Source: an uncultured Anaerolineae bacterium (lineage in GTDB: Bacteria; Chloroflexota; Anaerolineae; Anaerolineales; Villigracilaceae). From it: 64,000 nucleotides of DNA. Location: assembly GCA_903875215.1 (NCBI GenBank), contig CAIQVH010000003.1, positions 1-64,000 on the forward strand, in the 5' to 3' direction. The notes below the pieces were generated by a model. That model was given only the letters and a program-made list of their open reading frames with translations, was not told the DNA's origin and did no database searches. The position numbers and the translations under genes were made by a program. Each line of letters begins with the position of its first letter. The first letter of the stretch is position 1. Below, one piece after another: positions 32,433 to 34,324 of this stretch.

Positions 32433-33101
32433 ATGTTACGCAAAACCTTTGAAACCGAAATCCAGCAGATGAAGGATGAGATCATTTTGCTCGGAAGCAT
32501 GGTCGAACAAAATGTCCTGGATTCAGTCGAAGCGCTGAAAAAACGGGATATGGAAGCTTCGCGCAAGATTGTTGCGCTGGATAAGCTGATTAATGACAAG
32601 CGTTTTGCGCTTGAAAACCAGGTGATGATTATCATCGCAACCCAGCAGCCGATGGCGCATGATCTGCGCCTGCTGGCTTCGTTCTTTGAAATCATCAGCG
32701 AATTGGAACGCATGGGCGACTATGCCAAGGGCATCGGCGTGATCAACATTCGCATGGGCGATCAGCCTTTGCTGAAGCCGCTGATCGATATTCCGCGCAT
32801 GGCCCAAAAAGGGGCGGATATGCTGCACCGTGCCCTGGCCGCTTTCGTCAACGAGGATGCTGAAGCCGCCCGCCTGATCCCGGCGGAGGACGACGAAGTG
32901 GATCAGCTCTACGAACAGATTTACCGCGAATTGATGACTTACATCATGGCCGATCCGCGAAACATTGAGCGCGCCAACTGGCTTTTGTGGGTGGCCCACA
33001 ACCTCGAGAGATTCGCCGATCGCGTCACCAACATTTGCGAGCGGACGGTGTTCATCGTGACCGGCGAATTGACCGAAATCAACGATATGAAAGACGGCTA
33101 A
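32433..33101 (+). CDS. phoU: PhoU phosphate signalling protein
   Basis: The 222-residue all-helical protein has two PhoU three-helix repeats with the metal-binding DxxxD/ExxxD-type acidic motifs (ELERMGDYAKG and LERFADRVTNICE). PhoU ties PstSCAB activity to the PhoR/PhoB system and limits phosphate uptake. A histidine kinase pair is not adjacent. The his promoter starts about 30 bases later. Confidence 0.93.
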   Translation: MLRKTFETEIQQMKDEIILLGSMVEQNVLDSVEALKKRDMEASRKIVALDKLINDKRFALENQVMIIIATQQPMAHDLRLLASFFEIISELERMGDYAKGIGVINIRMGDQPLLKPLIDIPRMAQKGADMLHRALAAFVNEDAEAARLIPAEDDEVDQLYEQIYRELMTYIMADPRNIERANWLLWVAHNLERFADRVTNICERTVFIVTGELTEINDMKDG

Positions 33102-33129
33102 TCAATGGTTGTCGAGCAAGATCGAGACA

Positions 33130-33158
33130 TTGACGAATTTTGACACCGCGAGTAAAAT
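33130..33158 (+). promoter_or_regulatory. his operon promoter
   Basis: TTGACG (33130-33135), a 17-base spacer and TAAAAT (33153-33158). The predicted transcription start is 33164-33169, at the ATG of the leader peptide, so the leader would be leaderless or nearly so. A second TTGACA at 33140 is poorly spaced. Confidence 0.7.
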
Positions 33159-33168
33159 GACGCCCATT

Positions 33169-33237
33169 ATGAAACTGACCTTCTCCCTGCACCATCACCA
33201 TCTGATCTGCCCCCTGCCTGACCGGAGAGCAGGTTAG
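33169..33237 (+). CDS. hisL: Histidine leader peptide
   Basis: A 22-codon reading frame begins ATG AAA CTG and holds four consecutive His codons (33190-33201, CAC CAT CAC CAT) before ending in TAG. It is too short for ordinary gene calling. It lies directly upstream of an attenuator and hisG, as the HisL peptide does in enteric bacteria. An in-frame ATG at 33157 is possible but lies in the -10 box. Confidence 0.85.
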   Translation: MKLTFSLHHHHLICPLPDRRAG

Positions 33238-33304
33238 TTTCGTTTCCACCCAAACTAACCACCCAGTAATCTCAGCTCCCGGTCACATGACCGGGGGCTT
33301 TTTG
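33213..33304 (+). promoter_or_regulatory. his transcription attenuator
   Basis: Three competing segments are visible: B, tgaccgg at 33219-33225; C, ccggtca at 33279-33285; D, tgaccgg at 33288-33294. C with D makes the terminator (12-bp stem agctcccggtca / tgaccgggggct, then TTTTT at 33299-33303). B, identical to D, can pair with C as antiterminator. A small stem cctgc (33213-33217) / gcagg (33229-33233) encloses B. A ribosome stalled at the His codons leaves B free; one reaching the stop at 33237 covers B. A further stem (ggttagttt / aaactaacc, 33232-33260) sits between. Confidence 0.82.
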
Positions 33305-33331
33305 TTTACGTTCCCGTAGAAAAGGATTTTT

Positions 33332-34324
33332 ATGCCACGAACCGAACTGCGTCTCTCGATCCCCTCCAAAGGCCGTCTCTCCGAGGATACGGTGGCTTTT
33401 CTCGCCGCCTGCGGCATCGATATTTACAAGCCGAATCCGCGCCAGTACGAGGCCACCATCCCCTCGATGCCGGGCGTGACGGTGCTTTTTCAGCGCCCGA
33501 CCGACATTGTCATCTCCGTCCGCAACGGTTCGGTGGATTTCGGCATCACCGGGCTGGATGTGCTGGAGGAGCATCGCGGCGAAAATGGCGATATTCTCGT
33601 GCTGCACGATGCGCTGGGATATGGCAAGTGCGCGCTGGCGCTGGCAGTGCCCGAGAGCTGGGATTCCGTCGAAACGGTGGCAGATTTACGGGGTCAGGCT
33701 GAATCCCTGCGCCGACCGCTCAAAGTGGCCACCAAATTCCCGGAGTTGACCTCCCGCTTCCTCGCCACGCAGCAAATCCCCTTTGAAATTGTCAGCGCGG
33801 AAGGGACGCTCGAAATCGCGCCTGCGATTGGTTTCGCTGATCTGATTTCTGACCTGGTCTCGAGCGGGCAAACTCTGCGCGACAACCGCCTGCGCCCGCT
33901 GACGGATGGCACCATCCAGCCTTCACAGGCGGCGCTGATTGCGAATCGCGCGGCGCTGCAAAATCCGTCTGCGCTGGCAGTGGCGCGCCAACTGCTGGAG
34001 TTTTTCGAGGCGTATTTGCGGGCGCATAACAACCTGTCGATTTTTGCGAACATGCGCGGAGAAAGCCCGCAGGCGATTGCCGGGCGCATTTTTGCCCAGA
34101 AGACCATCGGCGGGCTGAACGGGCCGACCATCAGCCACATCATCCACCGCGATGGCGACCCCAACTGGTATGCGCTGCATATCATCGTCCACCGCAACGA
34201 GTTGTTCAGCGCCATCAACGAACTGCGCGCCATCGGCGGCAGCGGCGTGGTGGTGGCGCCCGTCACTTATATTTTTGAAGAAGAGCCGCCCAGATATAAG
34301 GCGATGCTGGATGCTTTGCGCTAA
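33332..34324 (+). CDS. hisG: ATP phosphoribosyltransferase HisG (long form)
   Basis: The 330-residue protein catalyses the first step of histidine synthesis. The catalytic half has IPSKGRLSE at the start and the PRPP-site region SAEGTLEIAPAIGFADLISDLVS. The C-terminal 80-90 residues form the ACT-like domain that binds histidine, so this is the feedback-inhibited HisG-L type that does not need HisZ. It directly follows the attenuator, so both transcription and enzyme are controlled by histidine. Confidence 0.95.
   Translation: MPRTELRLSIPSKGRLSEDTVAFLAACGIDIYKPNPRQYEATIPSMPGVTVLFQRPTDIVISVRNGSVDFGITGLDVLEEHRGENGDILVLHDALGYGKCALALAVPESWDSVETVADLRGQAESLRRPLKVATKFPELTSRFLATQQIPFEIVSAEGTLEIAPAIGFADLISDLVSSGQTLRDNRLRPLTDGTIQPSQAALIANRAALQNPSALAVARQLLEFFEAYLRAHNNLSIFANMRGESPQAIAGRIFAQKTIGGLNGPTISHIIHRDGDPNWYALHIIVHRNELFSAINELRAIGGSGVVVAPVTYIFEEEPPRYKAMLDALR

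Follow-up and report, generated by a model that had tools for sequence, protein, structure and literature searches.

In Escherichia coli and Salmonella, the his operon is described as being controlled by an attenuator: a leader peptide with a run of consecutive His codons, an RNA that can fold in alternative ways, and a terminator in front of the first structural gene (PMC3896937). The ilvBNC transcript of Corynebacterium glutamicum has been reported to begin a single nucleotide away from the start codon of its leader, and the first hairpin of this leader was argued to block leaderless initiation (PMC11857589). The 5' end of the Sinorhizobium meliloti trpL RNA is given as the leader ATG (PMC7298713). 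Mycobacterial polycysteine ORFs (Canestrari 2020, cited in PMC9031893) are portrayed as leaderless and short, with contiguous Cys codons, and as controlling downstream genes. Outside the Proteobacteria, His-leader attenuators were predicted comparatively in Firmicutes (PMC9413887), and a survey detected leaderless genes in 4 of 12 Chloroflexi genomes, on average 4.7% (PMC3160421). A literature search, which covered a minority of subscription journals, revealed among the papers listed no leaderless attenuator for his or for Chloroflexota, and no his attenuator of this phylum.

The window, i.e. the whole stretch of DNA analyzed here, comprises 64,000 nt (positions 1-64,000 of the forward strand of contig CAIQVH010000003.1, assembly GCA_903875215.1) and originates from an uncultured Anaerolineae bacterium (GTDB Chloroflexota; Anaerolineae; Anaerolineales; Villigracilaceae). 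The leader parts and hisG described below lie on its forward strand. We conclude, with a probability of approximately 0.86, that its his operon is governed by a ribosome-mediated transcription attenuator, whose sensor peptide would be made from a leaderless transcript with a 5' UTR of 0-4 nt. As far as a sequence can say, this supports the earlier note, which had read the region as a classical his attenuator with a leaderless leader: the attenuator of the window appears to be real, conserved in the clade and very probably leaderless.

The locus shares with the his attenuator of E. coli and Salmonella, as described, the His-codon leader peptide, the alternative structures and the terminator before the first gene. 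Unlike the latter, it has no evident Shine-Dalgarno (SD) sequence, almost no predicted 5' UTR, four instead of seven consecutive His codons, nested antiterminator helices and no Rfam family at gathering score anywhere in the window. The reported first hairpin of C. glutamicum ilvBNC resembles a helix of the window that covers the AUG (A:B, see below); this system differs in that it concerns branched-chain amino acids and another phylum. A leader ATG at or near the RNA 5' end, as predicted for the window, is also ascribed to S. meliloti trpL, a Trp leader of the Proteobacteria. The mycobacterial ORFs have in common with the window a short reading frame containing contiguous codons of the amino acid, leaderless in mycobacteria and predicted to be so in the window; their amino acid is Cys, and PMC9031893 speaks of translation of the downstream genes. 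The Firmicutes his attenuators belong to another phylum, and the word "leaderless" is absent from the main text of PMC9413887. Leaderless attenuators are already known for trp, ilv and Cys. What is new is the his variant in Chloroflexota, a phylum from which, judging by the papers listed, perhaps no his attenuator has been described before. To our knowledge, the his leader of Anaerolineae would be the most widely conserved leaderless attenuator.

A scan of both strands of the region 33000-33400 disclosed a sole promoter-like site, the sigma-70-type element TTGACG-17-TAAAAT (33130-33158). Its boxes, TTGACG at 33130 and TAAAAT at 33153-33158, gave 10 out of 12 consensus matches (shuffle mean 0.3), and a similar element is in place in most relatives. 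At the usual spacing from a -10 box, transcription is predicted to start within 33165-33167. Because 10 nt separate the -10 box from the ATG at 33169, this start would lie about 2-4 nt 5' of the codon. The earlier note had let transcription begin at the leader ATG; the predicted start lies near this codon, not exactly on it. The predicted 5' UTR amounts to approximately 3 nt in the window and to 0 nt in relatives with a 7-nt gap. Another in-frame ATG at 33157 was rejected as leader start since it overlaps the -10 box and cannot be contained in transcripts from this promoter. An alternative -35 sequence TTGACA at 33140, located 19 nt from CATTAT, was also discarded, as the relatives retain the promoter with 17-nt spacing.

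The leader ORF MKLTFSLHHHHLICPLPDRRAG (33169-33237) encodes a peptide of 22 codons, ends with the stop codon TAG (33235-33237) and contains the four tandem His codons CAC CAT CAC CAT (33190-33201). No evident SD sequence precedes it; the SD-like pairing energy is -2.5 at the leader vs. -5.4 at the hisG start, in agreement with the earlier statement that the peptide would be translated without a ribosome binding site. Profile matches identified the following genes as hisG (33332-34324), a long form with a C-terminal domain, and then hisD, hisC and hisB. The C-terminal domain of HisG matched TIGR03455 with 55.2 bits (cut-off 40.05), so that the domain previously called the feedback domain is indeed present. 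From this domain we infer that control may comprise two layers, attenuation and HisG feedback.

Folding and pairing computations assigned several segments to the leader RNA. Segment A (33169-33186), which includes the AUG, pairs in the window fold with segment B (33224-33243) at 33224-33228 and 33231-33243 and thereby covers the start codon. This anti-antiterminator A:B was found by folding and duplex tests. Segment B holds the stop codon and, by its stretch GGTTAGTTT at 33232-33240, can alternatively pair with segment C, AAACTAACC (33252-33260), as indicated by pair probabilities. The antiterminator is made up by segment D, TGACCGG (33219-33225), and segment E, CCGGTCA (33279-33285), their pairing being supported by sequence, duplex tests and pair probabilities; the antiterminator helices are nested, with B:C inside D:E. 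E resides in the 5' arm of the terminator hairpin (33274-33299, 11 pairs, detected by terminator scan and folding), whose 3' arm harbors F, again TGACCGG (33288-33294), and which leads into a T5 tract (33299-33303). Finally, a pairing computation allows a C-tract, GCCCCC at 33209-33214, to bind GGGGGC (33293-33298) in the terminator 3' arm. The earlier note had named the four His codons, TGACCGG at 33219 and 33288, a single CCGGTCA and the five Ts, all of which were recovered in place, the single CCGGTCA at 33279; A:B, B:C and the pairing of the C-tract with the terminator 3' arm are parts beyond its two competing 7-mers. Two terminator-like sites were found within 33000-33400 (shuffle mean 0.4), and the leader showed a folding energy z of -4.96, reached by none of 200 shuffles. 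The Rfam family His_leader, presumably RF00514, was absent from nine weak matches in 33100-33340. A T-box riboswitch was rejected too, there being no Rfam T-box match in the window or among these weak matches.

The start of the transcript, the loading of the ribosome and the response to histidine would be expected to work together as follows. A ribosome would load on the nascent RNA at the AUG of its 5' end. When charged tRNA-His is short, it would stall on the His codons and hide A, whereupon B:C and D:E could form, aided by the C-tract taking F; no terminator would arise and the his genes would be transcribed. When His is plentiful, the ribosome would reach the UAG inside B and cover both D and B, leaving E:F to terminate transcription. 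If no ribosome had loaded, A:B would form over the AUG and E:F would again terminate.

Pair probabilities were computed for the RNA left free by the ribosome, the footprint edges being approximate. In the window, the first His codon in the A site (RNA free from 33203) yielded 0.99 for D:E and 0.004 for E:F. With the ribosome at the stop codon (free from 33248), E:F rose to 0.988, and the full leader without ribosome gave 0.998 for A:B and 0.988 for E:F. In silico, the window thus behaves as if a mutually exclusive antiterminator were switched by ribosome position. When the A site held the fourth His codon (free from 33212), equilibrium favored the terminator (E:F 0.98), so antitermination at this codon would rest on folding order; in the growing RNA, the same stall gave 0.97 for D:E at 33292. 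Without ribosome, A:B formed first in the growing RNA (0.999 at 33260), D:E then reached equilibrium values of 0.96 at 33286 and 0.86 at 33292, and later A:B and E:F won. Since D:E is briefly favored here, early termination of untranslated RNA needs A:B to persist kinetically. The same computation on 34 loci showed that a stall at the first His codon put the terminator below 0.5 in 17 of them, compared with 1.4 of 34 for shuffles of the intervening RNA. The other 17 loci, including the nearest relative L002, did not switch at equilibrium. Without ribosome the terminator was at least 0.5 in 29/34 loci (not in L006, L007, L008, L016 and L034). With the ribosome at the stop codon this value was attained in 34/34 loci, a nearly trivial result because little other RNA remains free.

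We also determined which relatives possess the leader. A search yielded 29 named loci, 28 of which are labelled Anaerolineae, Anaerolineales, Chloroflexi, Chloroflexota or a genus thereof, the remaining one (L030) being labelled Brocadiia. Three loci (L013, L017, L030) begin inside hisG; each of the other 26, for which upstream sequence is available, carries a His-rich leader ahead of this gene. phoU-like sequence occurs upstream in 8 of these 26, five loci having less than 2000 nt upstream. In a sample of the class, hisG was detected in 51 of 160 genomes (E <= 1e-40), and 50 of these (without G154) were examined, two loci (L033, L049) being cut off at the contig end. In 13 of the 50, three or more His of a leader fall into a stretch of six residues, and two further leaders with two His were recognized by eye (L035, L037). 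The leader scan showed no His leader in the remaining genomes of this sample; a match in L043 appears to be part of a longer coding region and was not counted. A search of the phylum matched 96 of 151 genomes, 84 of them outside the class. From the other Chloroflexota classes, 20 hisG upstream regions were taken, one per family. None of the 20 showed the leaderless layout, and 18 lacked a His-rich ORF in the 420 nt upstream of hisG. The His-rich match in L167 looks like chance. L168 may contain a led His leader before hisG, with a GTG start, the sequence HHHH and a gap of 57 or 66.

To compare the layouts, we let the leader start at the earliest in-frame ATG downstream of the promoter box and sought the best promoter from -120 to +30 around the leader ATG. 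In 31 out of 35 loci, which are related and therefore no independent trials, 6-11 nt separate the -10 box from this ATG (10 nt in 18 loci, 7 in nine, 9 in two, 8 and 6 in one each). Such a gap was obtained in 4.8% of dinucleotide shuffles (n = 2100) and, by the identical scan, before hisG itself in 4/35 loci. The 35 include L035, whose two His codons are separated and which was recognized by eye; leaving this locus out gives 30/34. L037 (two His, gap 7 by eye) entered no count. Taking the last ATG before the His run as start, 27/34 loci (L035 left out) still had a gap of 6-11 nt; a later in-frame ATG is present in L008, L036 and L048 and, among the new loci mentioned below, in L138, L139 and L144. 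SD-like energies of -4 or lower were calculated for 2/35 leaders (L003, L023) vs. 22/35 hisG starts. Four loci are exceptions. The close relative L003 has a gap of 44 and AAGGA upstream and thus an apparently SD-led leader, indicating that a leaderless start is not obligatory. L005 has its ATG at 36, or an in-frame TTG at 9; the leader ATG of L027 lies 47 nt from the box and looks led; and in L031 the scan finds no promoter in place, where TAAAAT plus 11 can be seen by eye.

An RNA model was built from 15 leaders, whose rows start 3-4 nt before the ATG except for L005. It gave 19 matches, of which five (L131, L132, L133, L135, L142) are the window, known loci or a near copy; three others without a His leader (L145-L147) are probably false and were excluded. 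The 11 new leaders have gaps of 7-11 nt in 11/11 cases by the first ATG and in 9/11 by the last. The earlier note had suggested looking for the same layout in related genomes, and had named a start far upstream as the case against it. His-rich leaders in 26/26 relatives and gaps of 6-11 nt in 31/35 loci affirm the former, while promoters that end 6-11 nt before the ATG in 31/35 and 11/11 loci predict nearby starts. The gap is exactly 7 or 10 nt in 27/35 and 8/11 loci, a three-base step; this preference agrees with transcription starting uniformly 8 nt past the box, which would give 5' UTRs of 0 or 3 nt. Because L003 seems to be SD-led, it offers a natural comparison to ask how a 5' UTR as short as 0 or 3 nt affects a ribosome-coupled switch. 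We suggest that annotation which depends on ribosome binding sites readily overlooks such leader ORFs. One genome harbors two His leaders, both with a 10-nt gap, L143 before hisG and L149 ahead of a gene that by eye resembles hisD.

Conservation of the RNA parts was assessed locus by locus. Near copies (L015, L025, L028, L029, L064) were left out of the terminator, duplex and promoter-gap counts, and for L003, L005, L007, L008, L018, L024 and L026 the hairpin was entered by hand in the duplex and switching tests. A script found a terminator in 32/34 loci, at the wrong place in L007. The hairpin of L005 and that of L018 come with TTT only. The D region paired with the terminator 5' arm with a mean z of -2.19, below -2 in 21/34 loci, and the best D duplex started 10-21 nt past the His codons in 32/34 loci. 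In L034, L036, L038, L040, L042 and L056 the sequence of D:E is changed and the pairing is kept. Compared with TGACCGG/CCGGTCA in the window, D and its partner read GGTCGGG/CCCGACC in L034 and GATCGAAGG/CCTTCGATC in L040. D:E failed (z > -1) in L019-L023 and L048. For A:B the mean z was -1.85, below -2 in 16/34 loci. Lack of conservation of the segments, the other objection raised in the earlier note, is hardly compatible with these values for D:E and A:B and with the covariation. In a swap control, own D/terminator pairs averaged -15.8 and swapped ones -12.2 kcal/mol. The own terminator was the best partner of the own D region in 8/34 rows, and in 10 rows at least 10 foreign terminators paired better. 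Sequence common to close relatives accounts for this in part, not for L020, L021 and L023. Over all loci, the B:C hairpin was no better than shuffles (mean z -0.34; below -2 in 2/34), and segments similar to C were seen, by eye, in close relatives only.

RNAalifold, applied to a 15-row alignment in which segment C is misaligned, returned the terminator and otherwise just a small hairpin, CCUGC/GCAGG. Therefore, the named pairs were counted and the per-locus duplex tests used. In the alignment, 88.5% of the cells of the named pairs were paired vs. 84.3% in shuffles (0/500), and slid versions reached at most 57.7%. Cells with double changes numbered 8 vs. 2.9 in shuffles (0/500). Pairs changed on both sides (3 vs. 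2.2; 193/500) and further pair types (13 vs. 11.7; 128/500) did not stand out from the shuffles. In L006, L011 and L031 another peptide frame follows the His codons and the nucleotides are still alike, which points to a constraint at the RNA level. The parts of the attenuator, their conservation and the in-silico switch can be read from the sequences themselves.

Upstream of the leader, phoU (profile match) ends at 33101, and a terminator scan disclosed none between this gene and the his leader, including 33102-33129. Read-through from pst-phoU into the leader is therefore possible, and the leader AUG would then be internal. An ordinary his attenuator on a longer transcript, originating from such read-through or from an undetected promoter and translated from a weak or SD-independent internal start, would also suit L003 and L027, which look led. 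We regard it as unlikely, because the first ATG follows the box by 6-11 nt in 31/35 and 11/11 loci, mostly without an SD sequence, and phoU-like sequence lies upstream in only 8/26 relatives. Another idea takes the leader, which comes after phoU and has a strong terminator, for an insulator or constitutive terminator at the end of the pst-phoU unit, with incidental His codons and repeats. The His-rich leader stands before hisG in 26/26 relatives, phoU-like sequence was seen in the available upstream DNA of only 8 of these, and the paired segments covary; we give this idea hardly any credence. Action chiefly in trans, by a small leaderless mRNA or by the peptide as with rnTrpL/peTrpL, finds a parallel in Sinorhizobium, where a leaderless attenuator is reported to yield such products (PMC7298713). 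From one relative to the next, however, the peptide ends differ and change frame, and the RNA stays conserved. This favors action in cis and makes the trans explanation very unlikely.

Going beyond the cis-acting leaderless attenuator preferred here, the switch might itself depend on leaderless initiation, which would have been retained for this reason in much of the class. As the AUG would be the 5' end and become hidden on formation of A:B, the antiterminator would be set only by a ribosome arriving promptly on a transcript of the dedicated promoter. Read-through RNA from upstream genes, with the leader AUG inside, would end at the terminator. Charged tRNA-His, the promoter of origin and the supply of 70S ribosomes would then be sensed jointly by the attenuator, and in this lineage the same design would serve aromatic amino acids. 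We put this extension forward tentatively and consider it possible, rather doubtful than probable.

The genome of the window was also searched for the pattern TTGAC-18-TANNNT-(6-10)-ATG, which yielded 16 sites vs. 3 for the reversed pattern. At L093 (1501-1757; contig C31 near 165618) one of these sites opens the Phe/Tyr-rich MKTTFRYFAFYFYYGSRLPAAGGDA, which is followed by a terminator and by aroH, encoding chorismate mutase (TIGR01796); the next gene reads by eye as DAHP synthase. L093 is a second leaderless-looking candidate attenuator of this genome, with its Phe/Tyr-rich peptide before aroH. Out of 30 aroH loci, the start was located in 27; a Phe/Tyr-rich short ORF lies upstream in 20 of these and none in 7. 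Among five look-alikes measured, the gap of the aroH leader is 10 in the own genome, L103, L104 and L105, and 9 in L115. A search of the own genome with TIGR00564 disclosed no trpE. At L100 (contig C31, 151500-153100), an Ile/Leu/Val-rich leader and a terminator precede a gene that reads by eye as ilvD and lies upstream of ilvB (TIGR00118). The ATG of this leader is situated 20 nt past the -10 box without an evident SD sequence, and an in-frame TTG at 11.
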